DNA of 64,000 nucleotides from an uncultured Treponema sp. (GTDB lineage: Bacteria; Spirochaetota; Spirochaetia; Treponematales; Treponemataceae). The translations under genes were made by a program, and so were the position numbers. The notes beneath the pieces were generated by a model. That model did not search any database and was not told the origin of the DNA. It worked only from the letters and a program-made list of their open reading frames with translations. Where the stretch lies: the NCBI GenBank assembly GCA_949299755.1, contig CASGBA010000003.1:1-64000 (forward strand). Direction: 5' to 3'. Below are positions 21,964-28,892 of this stretch, in pieces (position 1 is the first letter of the stretch; the number at the start of each line of letters is the position of its first letter).

Positions 21964-21988
21964 CCCGGGAGCTAAACCAGTTTTTTTA

Positions 21989-22027
21989 CGAAACCGTTCT
22001 CTTTTTAGGGAACGGTTTCGTTGTTTT
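21989..22027 (+). terminator. Rho-independent terminator after rpmE
   Basis: Perfect 11-bp stem CGAAACCGTTC (21989-21999) / GAACGGTTTCG (22010-22020), then TTGTTTT. Confidence 0.88.
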
Positions 22028-22098: not shown

Positions 22099-22128
22099 TT
22101 GACTATATTAAAAAAGCCCGTATATAAT
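22099..22128 (+). promoter_or_regulatory. Promoter of the hydrogenase operon
   Basis: TTGACT (22099-22104), 18-base spacer, TATAAT (22123-22128), 23 bases before the first gene. No clear Rex-type palindrome overlaps it. Confidence 0.65.
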
Positions 22129-22151: not shown

Positions 22152-22412
22152 GTGAATGAGCCGAGTGTAACTGTCACGGTATGTATGGGTAGTTCCTGCT
22201 TTTCCCGCGGTAGCAACCGTAATGTCGAAGCTATACAGAATTTTGTAAAAGATAACGGGTTGGAAGGTAAGGTGGAGGTTTCCGGCTGTCTTTGCAGCGG
22301 TCATTGTAAGGAAGGTCCCGTTTTAATGATAAACGGAGAGCTAATAGAGGGAGTTCTGCCGGAAATGATTCCGGATTTACTTTCCCATAAATTATTAAAT
22401 CAGGATTCATGA
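22152..22412 (+). CDS. hfsA: Thioredoxin-like [2Fe-2S] ferredoxin, hydrogenase operon subunit
   Basis: 86 aa from GTG 22152, with AGGAG about 7 bases upstream. The four cluster cysteines have the thioredoxin-like ferredoxin spacing, CMGSSC near residue 11 and CLCSGHC near 46, as in NuoE/HndA C-terminal parts. It should pass electrons to or from the hydrogenase encoded one base downstream. First gene of a five-gene operon resembling the Hfs type known from Thermoanaerobacterium; the symbol follows that arrangement and is tentative. Confidence 0.8.
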   Translation: MNEPSVTVTVCMGSSCFSRGSNRNVEAIQNFVKDNGLEGKVEVSGCLCSGHCKEGPVLMINGELIEGVLPEMIPDLLSHKLLNQDS

Positions 22413-22413
22413 T

Positions 22414-24171
22414 ATGACGGTTCAAACGCCTATTTATACTGAAATAACCCAGTGTCAGGATTGTTATAAATGCATCCGGGAATGTCCGATTAAGGCTATT
22501 TCTGTGGAGCAGGGGCATGCGAAGGTTATTCCAAATCTTTGCGTTCTCTGCGGTCATTGTGTCATAGTATGCCCTGCCGGTGCAAAACGGGTCAGGGATG
22601 ATTTGCCCAGGGCGAAACAACTGGTAAAAATCAAGGAAAAGGTTTTTCTCTCTCTCGCCCCTTCTTTTGCTTCCGAATTCGCTGGGATTCCTCCGGAAAA
22701 ACTGGTGGCTGCTTTGAAAAAACTGGGTTTTGCGGGAGTTTCAGAAACAGCTGTTGGAGCGGATTTTGTTTCCTCCGATATTTCCAGCCTTTTAAATGAA
22801 ACCGAAAATAAAATCGCCGCCGGAGAAAGTGGGGTACAGAAACTCTTCCTTTCGTCAGCTTGTCCTGTGGCGGTGGAATATGTTAAACGGTATCTTCCTT
22901 CCCTTGTGGATTCAATAACAGATTGTGCCTCTCCTCTTTTAGCCCATGTTAGGTTTTTGAAAAACCAATTCGGGAAAAACTGCGCTGTTATTTTCGCTGG
23001 TCCATGCATAGCAAAGAAGCGGGAATCGGATGTGTGGCAGCAGGATCTTGACTGTGTAATTTCCTTTCAGGATTTGAAAAAGTGGCTTCAAGATGAGGGG
23101 ATAAGGATAGAAGCCTGCACGGGAAATGAAGCTGATAAATTTGTTCCTTTTAGGGCTGCCAAAGGTGCCTTGTATCCCATAGATGGCGGGATGATTTCCT
23201 CTGTAAGGAAATACTCCGGGATGGATAATTGTGATATGCTGGCGGTTACCGGCCTTGATGAAATAGGAGCCGCCCTTAGGGGCATAGAACCTGAAAAGCT
23301 GACAAAACCTCTTTTTGTGGAATTGCTGGCTTGTCATGGTGGTTGTGTCAACGGTCCCTTGGCGTCAAATAACAGCCCCACATTGATGAGGCAAATATCC
23401 TTGCTGAAATACGCAGATAGCGCTAAAGATGTTACCTCTGAAAAAGAGATACCTGTTATGTCCGGTACATTGCCCACGGAGGCCGCGGAGGAAATAAAAC
23501 ACAGTGAAAGCGACATTACTTCTGCTTTGCGTTCTGTGGGAAAATTTACCCTTCAGGATGAATTAAATTGCGGCAGCTGCGGTTATGATACCTGTAGGAG
23601 TTTTGCGGCCGCCATGCTGGAAAAACGGGCCGAGAAGGGTATGTGCGTTTCTTATATGCGTAAACTCGCCCAGAAAAAAGCCAACGGGTTGATAAAGACC
23701 ATTCCCTCCGGTGTTGTAATCTGTGATTCCAATTTAATGATAATAGAATGCAATGAGAATTTTGCCAGACTGATGGGGGATCAGATAATGGAACTTTTTG
23801 AAGCTAAGCCGGGGCTCGAAGGGGCTGAGCTTTCAAAAATCACTTCCCTGTCAAAATATTTCAGTGATGTAATGTCGGCGGATGGTCCTGATGTTGTGGA
23901 TCATGAGGTTAGGGAAGGGAAAAAAATATTCCACGCCACAATTTTCTCGTTGGAAGAGGGGCAAAGTGCCTGTGGTGTCATTCAGGATGTGACCGCGCCA
24001 CAGGTTCAACGTTCCCGGGTGATTAAACAAACCCAGCGGGTTATAGATAAAAACCTGGCGGTTGTGCAGAAGATAGCTTTCCTTTTGGGAGAAAATGCCG
24101 CTGAAACGGAAGCAACATTGAACTCAATAATTGAATCCTTTGCCGGAAACGATGGTGATGCCAATGAGTGA
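22414..24171 (+). CDS. hfsB: PAS-containing sensory-type [FeFe] hydrogenase
   Basis: 585 aa. The N-terminus holds two 4Fe-4S motifs (CQDCYKCIRECP, CVLCGHCVIVCP). The H-cluster domain follows with L1 SSACPVAVE, L2 GPCIAKKRESD and L3 ELLACHGGCVNG: all four H-cluster ligand cysteines appear present, but the proton-transfer cysteine of the normal TSCCP motif is alanine. That substitution is known in sensory hydrogenases such as Thermotoga HydS. Next come an extra Fe-S motif (CGSCGYDTC near residue 390) and a PAS domain (about 430-540: SGVVICDSNLMIIECNENFARLMG). The 3' end overlaps the phosphatase gene. It probably reads H2 or redox state and passes this through the PAS domain; inference from the motifs and the neighbour. 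Confidence 0.85.
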   Translation: MTVQTPIYTEITQCQDCYKCIRECPIKAISVEQGHAKVIPNLCVLCGHCVIVCPAGAKRVRDDLPRAKQLVKIKEKVFLSLAPSFASEFAGIPPEKLVAALKKLGFAGVSETAVGADFVSSDISSLLNETENKIAAGESGVQKLFLSSACPVAVEYVKRYLPSLVDSITDCASPLLAHVRFLKNQFGKNCAVIFAGPCIAKKRESDVWQQDLDCVISFQDLKKWLQDEGIRIEACTGNEADKFVPFRAAKGALYPIDGGMISSVRKYSGMDNCDMLAVTGLDEIGAALRGIEPEKLTKPLFVELLACHGGCVNGPLASNNSPTLMRQISLLKYADSAKDVTSEKEIPVMSGTLPTEAAEEIKHSESDITSALRSVGKFTLQDELNCGSCGYDTCRSFAAAMLEKRAEKGMCVSYMRKLAQKKANGLIKTIPSGVVICDSNLMIIECNENFARLMGDQIMELFEAKPGLEGAELSKITSLSKYFSDVMSADGPDVVDHEVREGKKIFHATIFSLEEGQSACGVIQDVTAPQVQRSRVIKQTQRVIDKNLAVVQKIAFLLGENAAETEATLNSIIESFAGNDGDANE

Positions 24172-25393
24172 ACCCATAGCACCGGGAACCTTCGTTGAAG
24201 TAGGCCATTATCAATTGAGTAAACACGGGCAGGGCGCTCCGGGAGATATGTTCCTCTCCCAGAAAAATGATGAAACCGGGCGCATTATAACGGTTTTGTC
24301 GGATGGGCTGGGTTCCGGAATAAAAGCCGGCGTTCTTTCCACTTTGACCGCTACCATGGCCCTGAAATTTGTCGCCGCTGATATTCCTATAAAGAGGGCG
24401 GCTGATATTATAATGAATACGCTTCCGGTTTGTAAGGACAGGGGAATAAGTTATGCAACCTTTACCCTTGTTGATATTGCGCCCAATTCATCTGTGAGGA
24501 TTATGGAATATGATAATCCGGGATATGTATTAATCCGTTCAAATGTGCTTGTTGAACCTATAAAGGACTGCGCTCCCATTGAGAGGAAAAATAAAAAGAC
24601 AGCCCCTGTCCGGGAAGCCATTCTGTATTATTCTGAATATGGTGCAAAACCAGGTGACAGATTGATTTTCTTTTCGGACGGCGTTACCCAGTCCGGAATG
24701 GGCACAAAGGCATCGCCATTGGGATGGGGTGATGCGGCTGTCCATGATTTTATCCTGGAAAAAATAGAGGAAGATCCGGAAATAAGTGCCCGGGATTTAG
24801 CCAGAAAAATTGTGGTCCAGGCTAACCTTCATGATGCTTTTGAGGCGAAGGATGATATAACCTGTGGTGTGGTTTATTTCCGCCATCCCAGGGACTTGCT
24901 TATAATAACCGGTCCTCCGATAAATCCGGAAAGGGATGCGGAACTTGCAAGGATTTTTAATTCCTTTAACGGAAAAAAAGTTTTGTGTGGTGGAACAACG
25001 GCAAATATTCTGTCAAGGGAATTGGGGAAAACTGTTTCCATTGTCCTTAAAAACATAGATCCGGTGGTTCCTCCAATTTCCGTTATGGAAGGGGCTGACT
25101 TAGTAACAGAAGGAATCATAACCCTGGGAAAAGTCGCTGAATTGCTTGAGGATGGTTCTGAATACGGTAAGTCCAAAATTCTGGATTCCGAAAAAGAGAA
25201 CGGCGCCTCAAAATTAGTTCAGCTTTTACTTGACAGTGACAGAATTAATTTCGTTGTGGGAACCCAGATAAATGCCGCCCATCAGGATCCGAATATGCCT
25301 ATGGAGCTTGAAATAAGGCGTAACGTTGTTAAGAAAATCGAAACTCTTTTGACGGATAATTATCTGAAGGAAGTTCATGTTTCTTATATGTAG
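24164..25393 (+). CDS. hfsC: SpoIIE/PP2C-type serine phosphatase, hydrogenase operon
   Basis: 409 aa from ATG 24164, which overlaps the stop of the PAS hydrogenase by 8 bases; earlier in-frame ATGs lie at 24152 and 24158. The PP2C core has the metal-binding aspartates in GDMFLSQ, VLSDGLGSGIKAG, FFSDGVTQSG and KDDITCGVV. The last 150 residues (from DLLIITGPPINPERDAELARI) form a domain that I cannot name. SpoIIE-type phosphatases dephosphorylate serine on regulatory proteins such as anti-sigma antagonists. Placed right after a sensory hydrogenase, it is the likely output of H2 sensing. No cognate kinase or target is in the window. Confidence 0.82.
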   Translation: MSEPIAPGTFVEVGHYQLSKHGQGAPGDMFLSQKNDETGRIITVLSDGLGSGIKAGVLSTLTATMALKFVAADIPIKRAADIIMNTLPVCKDRGISYATFTLVDIAPNSSVRIMEYDNPGYVLIRSNVLVEPIKDCAPIERKNKKTAPVREAILYYSEYGAKPGDRLIFFSDGVTQSGMGTKASPLGWGDAAVHDFILEKIEEDPEISARDLARKIVVQANLHDAFEAKDDITCGVVYFRHPRDLLIITGPPINPERDAELARIFNSFNGKKVLCGGTTANILSRELGKTVSIVLKNIDPVVPPISVMEGADLVTEGIITLGKVAELLEDGSEYGKSKILDSEKENGASKLVQLLLDSDRINFVVGTQINAAHQDPNMPMELEIRRNVVKKIETLLTDNYLKEVHVSYM

Positions 25394-25428: not shown

Positions 25429-25686
25429 ATGGACAAAAAAATTAAAGTCAACATTTGCTCGGGAACAGCCTGTTTTGTGATGGGGTCTTCCGATATCCTG
25501 CTTTTGGAAGAAAGGCTTCCTGAACATCTTAAAGATATTGTTGAAATTGAGGGTGCAACCTGTCTTGGTTATTGCAAGGATTTGTCCAAAGGAAAAGCGC
25601 CCTTCGTTGTCATTAACGGTGAAGTTATATCATCCGCCACCCTGCCCATGGTAATAAACAGGATAGAGGAGATTGCCAATGCTTAA
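25429..25686 (+). CDS. Second thioredoxin-like [2Fe-2S] ferredoxin of the hydrogenase operon
   Basis: 85 aa; AAGGAG upstream of the ATG. Cysteines in ICSGTACFVMG and GATCLGYCKD have the thioredoxin-like ferredoxin pattern. A paralogue of the first gene in this operon, sitting immediately before the catalytic hydrogenase it presumably serves; the two genes overlap by 8 bases. Confidence 0.8.
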   Translation: MDKKIKVNICSGTACFVMGSSDILLLEERLPEHLKDIVEIEGATCLGYCKDLSKGKAPFVVINGEVISSATLPMVINRIEEIANA

Positions 25687-27160
25687 TATAAACAATGGTG
25701 CGGCGAATATAAAAAGAGAGATCCTGATAAAAATAGCCAAACTTCAGTTTGAAGGAAAACTTGAGGATGGTGTCCATTATATTGCCCGGGAAATGTTCCC
25801 CAGGAAACAAACACCCATGCGGTGTTGTATCTTCCATGACAGGGAATTATGCCGACAGCGTGTTATTGCAAGATTGGGCCACAGTCTTGAGGACTACGAT
25901 GATGAAAAGCCTCTGGCGGAATATGCCAGGGATGCTCTTGCCAGGGAAAAGCCTACTGAGCCGATGCTTACTGTTTTGCATGACGCTTGTAATGCCTGTG
26001 TAAAGGCCCACTATATGGTCACCAATGCCTGTCAGGCTTGTATCGCCAGGCCCTGTATGATGAACTGCGGGAAAAAAGCAATAAAAATTGTGGGCCACAG
26101 GGCACAGATTGACTCTGATTTATGTGTCAACTGCGGCTTGTGTATGCAGAATTGTCCATACCATGCCATTATAAAAATTCCTGTTCCCTGTGAGGAAGCC
26201 TGTCCTGTGGGAGCCATCAGCAAAGATGAAAATGGAAAAGAGCGTATTGATTACAGTAAATGTATTTTTTGCGGTTCCTGTATGCGGGAATGTCCATTCG
26301 GCGCCATGATGGATAAAAGCCAGTTGGTGGATGTTATAAAACATTTGATGTCCGGAAAAAAGGTTGTGGCAATGTATGCCCCTGCCTTGGCCGCCCAGTT
26401 CCGTGGTGCCCCGGGACAGCTTGAAGGCGCATTTAAATCAGCGGGCTTCTTTAAAACTTTTGAGGTCGCTTACGGGGCTGATATCACCGCTGATAAAGAA
26501 GCGGAGGAATTCGCGGAAAGGATGGAACGCGGAGATGTTTTAATGACAACATCCTGCTGTCCTGCCTACGTGCGGGCTGTAAAGATACATGTTCCCGCAT
26601 TAACACAATGTATTTCGGATACACGTTCTCCCATGCATTACACAGCACAAATCGCAAAGAAGGAAAATCCGGATTATGTCACTGTTTTCATTGGTCCCTG
26701 CCTTGCGAAACGGAAAGAGGGTCTTGACGATGAATTCGTGGATTATGTTCTTTCTGCGGAAGAAGTGGGCGCTTTGTTTGTTGCGAAAGACATTGATGTG
26801 GCTAAATGCGATGTTATAATGCCGGAAGTTTTGTCCACGCCCAGCGGAAGGAATTTTGCCCAGTCCGGAGGAGTGGCCGAAGCGGTACGCATAAGATTAA
26901 AGCATCCTGATATTTTGCGCCCTGCTGTTATAGACGGTTTGGATAAAAACGGAATTAAGCAGCTGGTGACATTCGGGAAGGCTGTGTCTTCCGGGGTTGC
27001 AGCGGAAGCCAATTTGGTTGAAGTTATGGCTTGCCAGGGAGGTTGTATTGCCGGTCCGTCAGTGATTTCAAATCCAAAAATCGCTTCAACATTGTTGAAA
27101 AAATATGCGGCGGCAGGGGCACAGCCTGACGGACGTCCTGTGGAAGATTCCGGCATTTAA
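25679..27160 (+). CDS. hfsD: Catalytic [FeFe] hydrogenase
   Basis: 493 aa from ATG 25679; AGGAG at 25667-25671 excludes the TTG at 25673. The N-terminal 110 residues include cysteines of uncertain role (MRCCIFHDRELC, CNACVKAH). Ferredoxin-type cluster motifs follow (CQACIARPCMMNC, CVNCGLCMQNCP, CIFCGSCMRECP), then the H-cluster domain: L1 TTSCCPAYV with the proton-transfer cysteine intact, L2 IGPCLAKRKE and L3 EVMACQGGCIAG. It is expected to reduce protons (or oxidise H2) in the cytoplasm, exchanging electrons with the thioredoxin-like ferredoxins upstream. The maturases HydE/F/G are not in the window. Its stop codon overlaps that of the convergent gene. Confidence 0.9.
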   Translation: MLNINNGAANIKREILIKIAKLQFEGKLEDGVHYIAREMFPRKQTPMRCCIFHDRELCRQRVIARLGHSLEDYDDEKPLAEYARDALAREKPTEPMLTVLHDACNACVKAHYMVTNACQACIARPCMMNCGKKAIKIVGHRAQIDSDLCVNCGLCMQNCPYHAIIKIPVPCEEACPVGAISKDENGKERIDYSKCIFCGSCMRECPFGAMMDKSQLVDVIKHLMSGKKVVAMYAPALAAQFRGAPGQLEGAFKSAGFFKTFEVAYGADITADKEAEEFAERMERGDVLMTTSCCPAYVRAVKIHVPALTQCISDTRSPMHYTAQIAKKENPDYVTVFIGPCLAKRKEGLDDEFVDYVLSAEEVGALFVAKDIDVAKCDVIMPEVLSTPSGRNFAQSGGVAEAVRIRLKHPDILRPAVIDGLDKNGIKQLVTFGKAVSSGVAAEANLVEVMACQGGCIAGPSVISNPKIASTLLKKYAAAGAQPDGRPVEDSGI

Positions 27161-28206
27161 GCCGGCGGAAATCTTTCTTTCATGGTAATTTCCCAGCAGC
27201 GGTGTGGCTTTTTCCCACGGAAATCCTCCGGTATTGTTTCCGCCGTGATGTCCCGGCATAGGATTTCAGTTCCGGTGGGAGGGGTGATTTTATCCATGTC
27301 AAACCGGAGCCTTTTTGAATTGGTGGAAAAATAAAGTGTCCCTCCGATGGAAAGCTTTTTCAGGCAGACTCCGCATAAAAAAGCCCAGTCCCTGTCCGTG
27401 TCGAGGTCATTTTTTGTGCGTTTTGAATTAGAAAAGGTCGGAGGATCGCAGATAATAATATCCCAGTGTTCTTTTCTATGTGTGCTTTTTTCCTGGAGGA
27501 ATTCCATTACATCCGTGCAAATGAATTCATATTGTCCTCTGGCACCGGATATAAAACCATTTTTGTCCATATTTTCTTTCGCCCGGGACAAATAAGTTTT
27601 AGACAGGTCTACGGAAGTTACTAAAGCCGCTCCTCCTGCAGCGGCTTGCACGGAAAAAGCGCCTGTATAGCAGAAAAGATTCAATATTTTTTTCCCGGCG
27701 GCTTCTTGCCTTATTTTATGGCGTAAGGCCCTGTGATCCAGGAAAAGTCCGGTGTCAAGATAATCGGATAGGTTCACTTTTATTAGGGATCCGTATTCTT
27801 CAACAAAGAAAGACAAGTCCTTTTCCCTGAGTTTTTCGTATTGGGATTTCTCTCCTCTCTGTCTTTTTCTTGTTTTTATAAAAATATTTTTTTCCGGTAT
27901 GGAAAGGGTTTTAGACGCTCCGTCCGTCAGTTTTTTCAGCCGGTATTTTTCATCCTCATTATCTGTTGTGTCTTTATACTGGTAAAATGAAATGTGTAGG
28001 AATTTTTCACCGGTAAATGCATCCTCGTATAAGTCCACATCCAATGGAATTTCCGGAATATCCCGCCCGTAAATCCTGTAAGCATGGATTCCGTTTCTTG
28101 AGGCCCATTTGCTCAAATGCCTGGCTTTCTTTTGCAACCTGTTTACAAAGAATTCCGTCTGCTGTTCCGTTTTAAGTCTTATTTCTTCAGGTATTACGCA
28201 TTGCAA
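27157..28206 (-). CDS. RlmK-like 23S rRNA methyltransferase
   Basis: 349 aa from TTG 28206, overlapping the end of rex by 13 bases; GGGGA lies about 11 bases upstream. It matches the C-terminal (RlmK) half of E. coli RlmL/RlmKL: VNLSDYLDTGLFLDHR, LNLFCYTGAFSVQAAAGGA (motif I), VDLSKTYLSRAKENMDKNG and the catalytic-site DPPTFSNSKR. RlmK makes m7G2069 in 23S rRNA. The RlmL half (m2G2445) with its THUMP domain is absent, so this is the stand-alone form. Target is inferred from the family. It follows rex on the same strand. Confidence 0.82.
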   Translation of the reverse strand: MQCVIPEEIRLKTEQQTEFFVNRLQKKARHLSKWASRNGIHAYRIYGRDIPEIPLDVDLYEDAFTGEKFLHISFYQYKDTTDNEDEKYRLKKLTDGASKTLSIPEKNIFIKTRKRQRGEKSQYEKLREKDLSFFVEEYGSLIKVNLSDYLDTGLFLDHRALRHKIRQEAAGKKILNLFCYTGAFSVQAAAGGAALVTSVDLSKTYLSRAKENMDKNGFISGARGQYEFICTDVMEFLQEKSTHRKEHWDIIICDPPTFSNSKRTKNDLDTDRDWAFLCGVCLKKLSIGGTLYFSTNSKRLRFDMDKITPPTGTEILCRDITAETIPEDFRGKKPHRCWEITMKERFPPA

Positions 28207-28892
28207 ATTTCACAATCCCCGCAACATCCGCCGCTGTCCTTCCGGCTGCAAGTGGCACAGGTTTTCTGCATATTCATTTTTACGCACAGCATGGCGTAGC
28301 CGGAGGTTAAATCTTCTTTTTGTACTGACACATATTCAGGAACTTTCAGTTTGATATTTGTGAAATTCCAAATAGCTGTTATGCCCGCTTCTATTATTTT
28401 ATCCGCAATGGATTGGGCTTGCCCGGAGGGAACAGTGAGAATAGCGATTTTTGCGCCGAAATTTTTTATATAAACATCAGCGGTTTCCAGAGAAAAAACG
28501 GGAACCCCGTGTATTTCCCCGCCGATTTTATCCGGGTCTATGTCAAAGGCGGCGCATATATTAAGCCCGTGGTATTGGAATTCCTGATAACCTGCCAGGG
28601 CTGTTCCCAGATTTCCGGCTCCAATAAGTACCGCCTGCTGGATTTCGTCCCATCCCAAAAAGTGTTCTATGGCTGCCATGAGAGCCACAACCGGATACCC
28701 TTTTTTGGGTTTCCCCACAATTCCTGTGATTGCCAGGTCTTTCCGCACCTGGATTGGTTCCAGCCGGAGCTCCTGGGCTATTACAGTTCCGGATATGTAT
28801 TCCTGTTTTTCGTTTTTTGCTTGGCGTATTATATGCAGGTATGAAGGCAATCTTCTGATGGAAGGAGCCGCTGAAATTTTCTGTTTTGCTAT
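28194..28892 (-). CDS. rex: Redox-sensing transcriptional repressor Rex with cysteine-rich tail
   Basis: 232 aa if begun at ATA 28892, which stands six bases after TGAGGAG. No ATG, GTG or TTG occurs between the upstream stop and TTG 28850, and starting there would remove the conserved SIRRLPSYL part of the winged-helix domain. The rest is typical Rex: GTVIAQELRLEPIQVRKDLA, the Rossmann motif VLIGAGNLGTALAGY, AAFDIDPDKIG, and LTVPSGQAQSIADK. Rex senses NADH/NAD+ and represses fermentative genes when NADH is low. The last 20 residues carry six cysteines (CATC...CCGDCEIC), not part of the usual family. It lies convergent to the hydrogenase operon, a plausible target. Confidence 0.88.
   Translation of the reverse strand: MAKQKISAAPSIRRLPSYLHIIRQAKNEKQEYISGTVIAQELRLEPIQVRKDLAITGIVGKPKKGYPVVALMAAIEHFLGWDEIQQAVLIGAGNLGTALAGYQEFQYHGLNICAAFDIDPDKIGGEIHGVPVFSLETADVYIKNFGAKIAILTVPSGQAQSIADKIIEAGITAIWNFTNIKLKVPEYVSVQKEDLTSGYAMLCVKMNMQKTCATCSRKDSGGCCGDCEICNA

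Follow-up and report, generated by a model that had tools for sequence, protein, structure and literature searches.

In the excerpts of the cited papers on which we draw, H2 sensing by bacterial [FeFe] hydrogenases is still termed 'putative'. A locus in an uncultured Treponema sp. raises the questions of what such a sensor consists of, by which residues it can be recognized and through which partner it might act. We analyzed a 64,000-nucleotide stretch of this genome (contig CASGBA010000003.1, hereafter the window), in which one reading frame had been predicted to encode a sensory-type [FeFe] hydrogenase (HydS) marked by a Cys-to-Ala exchange. The frame lies in an operon of the hfsABCD/hydS type that has already been published (HydDB group C3, 'phosphatase-linked'), and its host here is a Treponemataceae-like spirochaete. 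We consider it probable, at about 0.68, that the operon as a whole is a putative H2/redox sensor of the hfsABCD kind, in which HydS signals via its C-terminal coil to a phosphatase.

Organization of the operon

Five forward-strand genes follow one another in the order TRX1, HydS, phosphatase, TRX2 and group B hydrogenase (Table 1). Neighbours overlap or are tens of bases apart, and the start codon of the phosphatase gene overlaps the end of the HydS gene (24164 versus 24171). The original prediction had overlooked the SpoIIE-type phosphatase between the hydrogenases as well as both thioredoxin-like proteins, and had not recognized the partner enzyme as group B. Upstream lie a terminator-like hairpin, behind a gene that we take to be rpmE, and the best of 14 sigma70-like matches in the stretch; the chance mean is 12.8, and this candidate promoter is proposed for its position and quality only. 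A gene for the redox repressor Rex is found about 1 kb downstream, convergent with the operon and outside it. Control by Rex through a near-consensus site in the window was considered and found no support, as a scan with the consensus that we presume for Rex sites returned four matches against 7.2 expected, no excess over chance.

Table 1. Features of the operon and its surroundings, in window coordinates.
Feature	Position	Strand	Basis
Terminator-like hairpin, 3' of upstream rho and presumed rpmE genes	21988..22021	+	15-pair stem
Sigma70-like promoter, TTGACT-18-TATAAT, 5' of operon	22099..22128	+	11/12 matches
TRX1, thioredoxin-like [2Fe-2S] protein, 86 aa, GTG start	22152..22412	+	PF01257, 41.3 bits
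HydS (HfsB-type), putative sensory [FeFe] hydrogenase, 585 aa, ATG start	22414..24171	+	ORF, Pfam, alignment, predicted structure
L1 SSACP, Ala at CpI C299 position	22852..22866	+	Sequence, alignments
L2 FAGPCIAKKRES, Gly at CpI M353 position	22993..23028	+	Alignments
L3 ELLACHGGCVNGP, Leu at CpI M497 position	23320..23358	+	Alignments
C-terminal 4Fe-4S motif, C386, C389, C394, C411	23569..23646	+	PF04060, 39.5 bits; invariant in A2 alignment
PAS domain of HydS, residues 412-527	23647..23994	+	PAS_8 on domain alone; predicted structure
C-terminal coil of HydS, motif QxIAxLLGExxAET	23995..24141	+	Long helix in model; G559 in 86/86
SpoIIE/RsbU-type PPM phosphatase (HfsC-type)	24164..25393	+	PF07228, 46.9 bits; structure matches to 3pu9 and SpoIIE
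Undescribed C-terminal domain (CTD) of phosphatase, 167 aa	24890..25390	+	Without Pfam/NCBIfam match; alignment of 20
TRX2, second thioredoxin-like [2Fe-2S] protein, 85 aa	25429..25686	+	PF01257, 29.5 bits
Monomeric group B [FeFe] hydrogenase (HfsD-like), L1 TSCCP	25679..27160	+	TIGR04105, 532.6 bits
Rex redox repressor gene	28194..28850	-	NF003994, 260.7 bits (cut-off 130)

The putative sensory hydrogenase and its catalytic partner

The HydS frame is real rather than a chance ORF, because it is conserved in relatives at 89, 79 and 67% identity (the closest named ones being an uncultured Treponema, 89%, and Candidatus Avitreponema avistercoris, 79%) and because the full order TRX1>HydS>PP>TRX2>HydB recurs in 31 of the 41 loci from the host family. 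The protein matches Fe_hyd_lg_C at 156.8 bits and contains Fer4 motifs. Two 4Fe-4S motifs are followed by the H-domain, a third such motif (PF04060), the PAS domain and a long C-terminal helix. By sequence the PAS domain is marginal, with PAS_8 at 19.9 bits in the whole protein, below the cut-off of 21.8, and at 22.1 bits when the domain is scanned alone; the predicted structure has a PAS-like order of helices and strands over residues 412-527, then a single long helix at 527-576, and the PAS domain originally proposed thus holds up.

HydS stays well below the cut-offs of the group A model (TIGR02512, 96.5 bits against 405.95) and the group B1 model (TIGR04105, 178.7 against 450). Group D (M2e) enzymes are characterized in an excerpt of PMC8163306 by the absence of a PAS domain and by Ser or Thr at the M353 position, whereas HydS has a PAS domain and Gly at that position. 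The locus unites the features of group C3, namely an H-domain with its ligand cysteines, a PAS domain and a linked Ser/Thr phosphatase gene, and the assignment to the sensory type is borne out. Alignment of the three H-cluster loops also confirmed the SSACP reading of L1; the cores of L2 and L3 are AGPCIAKK and ELLACHGGC, and all four ligand cysteines are kept. The proton-path positions E279, E282, C299 and S319 are occupied by I, L, A and T, with the exact replacements in the E279-R286 helix uncertain, as its columns align weakly between HydS and group A. With the usual proton path lost and the H-cluster ligands kept, HydS probably reports on H2 slowly instead of producing it.

The TSCCP-bearing enzyme predicted to be the catalytic member of the same operon is indeed encoded there, and its score, above the TIGR04105 cut-off of 450, refines it to group B. 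It carries E, E, C and S at the four proton-path positions, has Gly for M353 and keeps M497. All 55 catalytic neighbours in the alignment have E279, E282, C299 and S319.

Variation at the C299 position

Alanine at the C299 position had been taken as the mark of the HydS type, and we rejected it as a diagnostic because the residue varies across three sets of HydS and in a published survey. Among 62 HydS of the host family and of named relatives in other phyla (an alignment of 70 rows from which eight relatives of other types were removed), we counted A 53, C 7, I 1 and H 1. Two further sets came from loci fetched for the phosphatase CTD: 29 spirochaetes outside the host family (A 22, C 4, V 1, H 1, S 1) and 57 Bacillota, in which Cys is the most frequent residue (C 24, S 14, A 11, Y 4, P 2, V 1, H 1). 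The survey of sensory enzymes gives about 43% Ala and 17% Cys (PMC10055695, in excerpt). On a quick tree the Cys label requires at least four changes; long branches meet in this tree, and two of its nine Cys rows are the group A and group B enzymes serving as outgroup. Family f1 (L108 and L109) has HydS with Ile or His at this position.

The same source reports, in the part consulted, that the A131C exchange in Thermotoga maritima HydS lowered activity and did not restore it (PMC10055695). Given this result and the variability of the residue, a comparison for equal activity would not cleanly separate sensory from catalytic types. Other positions are far more constant in the 86 HydS from spirochaetes outside the family and Bacillota: C300, C355 and C499 occur in 86/86, C503 in 85/86, coil residue G559 in 86/86 and Gly at the M353 position in 83/86. 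Judged from these alignments, the conserved hallmarks of the type are the ligand cysteines, Gly for M353, the C-terminal 'LLGExxAET' coil and a partner phosphatase that carries the undescribed CTD.

The phosphatase and its C-terminal domain

In a fold search, the phosphatase model matched 3pu9 (Z 25.8, rmsd 2.7, 221 aligned) and SpoIIE 5ucg (Z 23.5, rmsd 2.9, 215 aligned). D28, D47, D172, D230 and D231 are invariant in 25 sequences. The PPM fold and the retention of metal-binding aspartates, the choice of which is our assumption, place the protein with the SpoIIE/RsbU type. Only 3-44 residues precede the first conserved residue of the phosphatase (11 or fewer in 19/25, with starts chosen by the analyst), which is too few for an N-terminal coiled linker in most of these proteins. 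One phosphatase, at L095:3246-4468, extends over two reading frames, possibly through a frameshift or an assembly error.

The CTD copy of the window had no match in a Pfam and NCBIfam scan. Other members gave scattered weak matches, the best being NF010736 at 8e-4 in one of 20, and comparison with PDB sequences likewise returned weak matches only (best E 0.026). The fold search was run with the whole phosphatase and its list was filled by the phosphatase domain, so that it gives no reading on the fold of the CTD. The GGTT and EG motifs are invariant in the 20 aligned sequences and VGT is nearly so. A profile of the domain found 41 places in 40 of 296 Spirochaetota genomes, all in frames of 388-488 aa, and matched 122 of 398 Bacillota genomes, mostly in frames of the same length and in a few short ones. 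In the open-licence literature searched, we found no description of the CTD, of a coil acting in trans or of the H-domain-less variant described below; the CTD is nameless and hence hard to search for.

Pairing of sensor and phosphatase across genomes

HydS and the phosphatase occur in an identical set of 45 of the 195 host-family genomes, counting two HydS fragments in G022 and G039. The phosphatase follows HydS in 41/41 family loci; neighbour counts used fixed distances, and 38 of these loci pass the 'immediately upstream' rule while three qualify by order only. TRX1 lies immediately 5' of HydS in 37/41, as read from order strings. Family loci that depart from the full order either carry rearrangements or are shorter, and then often lie at a contig end. 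Elsewhere, the pair often adjoins group A (HydABC-type) enzymes in place of group B.

We examined 93 CTD frames in 92 loci, comprising 32 spirochaete and 60 Bacillota loci; the latter were picked from the 122 matching genomes as best-scoring plus chosen weak or stand-alone cases, which biases the fractions. Phosphatases directly 3' of a full HydS account for 86 of the frames (one HydS without a PAS match), three follow a PAS-coil protein only, three are a CTD alone after HydA and one is at a contig edge. No HydS-phosphatase fusion was found among 253 loci.

The three PAS-coil proteins, from f19 spirochaetes (L168, L172 and L175), have 173-186 residues with a PAS domain and a coil, which reads IARLLGETTAET in L172 and L175, and have neither the H-domain nor a 4Fe-4S motif. 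Their gene is located 3' of TRX1 and 5' of the phosphatase, with nuoE, nuoF and a gene for an FeS protein resembling the HydA N-terminus further downstream. [FeFe] hydrogenases are encoded elsewhere in two of the three genomes; none was found in the third, which is 71% complete. In L172 (4204-12755), the one locus checked for this, the next gene encodes an acetyl-CoA synthase (ACS/CODH beta, 388 bits), with a gene for a ferredoxin-like protein on the upstream side.

Stand-alone CTDs of 156-159 aa were observed in Bacillota (L214:5599-6075, L215:6123-6602 and L216:5945-6415). They start 55-68 bases after the HydA gene of a HydABC operon, HydA being confirmed for L214 as Fe_hyd_lg_C at 321 bits, and the same genomes additionally hold a HydS-phosphatase pair.

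Hydrogenases and HATPases elsewhere in the genome

The genome that contains the window has six SpoIIE, four STAS and three HATPase_c_2 matches above cut-off. On contig C6 (L111:8364-10138), an RsbW-like HATPase gene is directly 5' of a second divergent [FeFe] hydrogenase, which has Ser at the C299 and M353 positions, no PAS match and a group D-like character, so that [FeFe] enzymes of groups A, B and C and of a D-like type are all encoded in this genome. C10 (L112:12709-13665) encodes a CBS-CBS-HATPase protein a few kb 3' of HydABC, a possible kinase partner. The third HATPase, on C12, is next to SpoIIE and STAS matches of its own.

Comparison with described systems

The cited papers are compared here by the gene content and features given in their excerpts. 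The hfsABCD operon of Thermoanaerobacterium saccharolyticum likewise joins a PAS-bearing [FeFe] hydrogenase, a serine phosphatase and a group B hydrogenase (PMC5707799, PMC11837493, PMC8924675); the window differs in its two thioredoxin-like genes and its spirochaete host. The hydS-hydA2 cluster of Ruminococcus albus also combines a putative PAS-containing H2 sensor with a co-transcribed hydrogenase and a putative Ser/Thr phosphatase (PMC6776011), but its eight genes include a group A1 partner and an alcohol/aldehyde dehydrogenase, whereas the window has a group B enzyme and lacks the dehydrogenase gene. Matched by described features, HydDB group C3, 'phosphatase-linked (putative)', shows the same association as the window, and we found no difference in the part consulted (PMC5037454). 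T. maritima HydS shares Ala at the C299 position, Gly at the M353 position and a PAS domain (PMC10055695), and differs at the M497 position, with Ser (PMC8163306) where the window has Leu. RsbP of Bacillus subtilis carries a PAS domain, a coil and a PPM phosphatase in one chain (PMC3183031), unlike the window, where two overlapping genes divide these parts between them, preceded by an H-domain and followed by the extra CTD.

Proposed mechanism and alternatives

By analogy with RsbP, we infer that HydS and the phosphatase may form a split version of such phosphatases. H2 would be the signal: the reduction state of HydS would pass through its FeS clusters to the PAS domain and then to the C-terminal coil. 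The linker-less phosphatase, the conserved HydS coil and the gene overlap suggest that the coil acts in trans, docking on the phosphatase encoded by the overlapping next gene. Coiled-coil linkers N-terminal to the PPM domain activate such phosphatases through dimerization, according to an excerpt of PMC12143880, and the docked coil could alter the dimer state and activity of the phosphatase as the in-cis linker of RsbP/RsbU does. The phosphatase would then dephosphorylate a Ser/Thr target encoded elsewhere and thereby set the output of the group B hydrogenase and other fermentation genes, in a direction that we can only surmise.

That sensing and production are linked, as the original prediction supposed, is reasonable, and genetics of the same operon type supports regulation (PMC5707799, PMC6776011, in excerpt); in its use of the alanine, the original interpretation leans on a variable residue. 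In T. saccharolyticum, deletion of hfsB raises ethanol, with adhE transcript up, whereas deletion of the entire operon does not (PMC5707799); removal of hfsB also raises hydrogenase activity. The hydS-bearing cluster of R. albus is down 111-fold in co-culture, and its expression drops at low H2 (PMC6776011). The sign of the effect thus differs between the two species, which counts against the main reading, as does the fact that we found no kinase or STAS partner linked to the operon. The lack of any fusion weighs in the same direction, since a fusion would argue strongly for direct contact.

HydS might alternatively be a slow catalytic or electron-carrying subunit of one hydrogenase complex that also contains the group B enzyme and the thioredoxin-like proteins, the phosphatase being a separate regulator. 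T. maritima HydS catalyzes both H2 uptake and H2 evolution (PMC10055695), HfsABC might work as a hydrogenase even when HfsD is missing, as a 2026 paper considers (PMC13277313), both as excerpted, and the operon genes are tightly packed. We nevertheless regard such a complex as improbable: HydS has lost its proton-path residues and conserves its PAS domain and coil, and the phosphatase follows HydS even where there is no group B enzyme and a HydABC-type one is nearby, and follows the PAS-coil protein that has no hydrogenase domain. This last variant, which in the three f19 loci sits between TRX1 and the phosphatase beside nuo-like genes, speaks instead for a sensor of general redox state that responds to ferredoxin or to the thioredoxin-like 2Fe-2S proteins and not to H2 itself, with the H-domain as a swappable input. 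The position of TRX1 next to HydS in most family loci fits as well, but the near-complete retention of the H-cluster ligand cysteines does not, and we hold this reading to be unlikely, if less so than the complex. A broader proposal, which we put forward tentatively and at somewhat under even odds, is that these are modular split sensor-phosphatases in which a PAS domain and coil would act in trans, the CTD would be dedicated to the pathway and the H-domain would be one interchangeable input, as some spirochaetes have the PAS-coil/phosphatase core without it. Since the CTD stands alone directly after HydA in three Bacillota, it may contact hydrogenases or their regulators directly.

Partner switching, in which the phosphatase would oppose two RsbW-like HATPases, one next to the group D-like hydrogenase (C6) and one downstream of HydABC (C10), seems doubtful to us. 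Two of the three HATPase_c_2 matches of the genome are direct neighbours of hydrogenase genes or lie no more than about 4 kb from them, and the phosphatase (45/195 family genomes) and hydrogenase-linked HATPases (39/195) occur together in 25/195, p = 4e-10 by a Fisher test that ignores relatedness. Without the large genus g4, however, which was removed by hand together with the dropping of 17/195 genomes to which no genus was assigned, the link is weak (both in 23/74 genomes, p = 0.06), and 20 of the 45 phosphatase genomes have no HATPase. An obligatory pairing with hydrogenase-linked RsbW-like kinases is therefore unsupported.

Conclusion

The HydS copy of the window is itself ordinary, and the alanine so often taken as the sensor mark is not the conserved part. 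More interesting are the family-wide features, namely the private CTD, the coil that would act in trans and the H-domain-less variant. The conserved coil, the linker-less phosphatase and the private domain provide concrete residues and proteins for tests of the split sensor-phosphatase, and the H-domain-less variant can serve as a natural control for the contribution of the hydrogenase domain.
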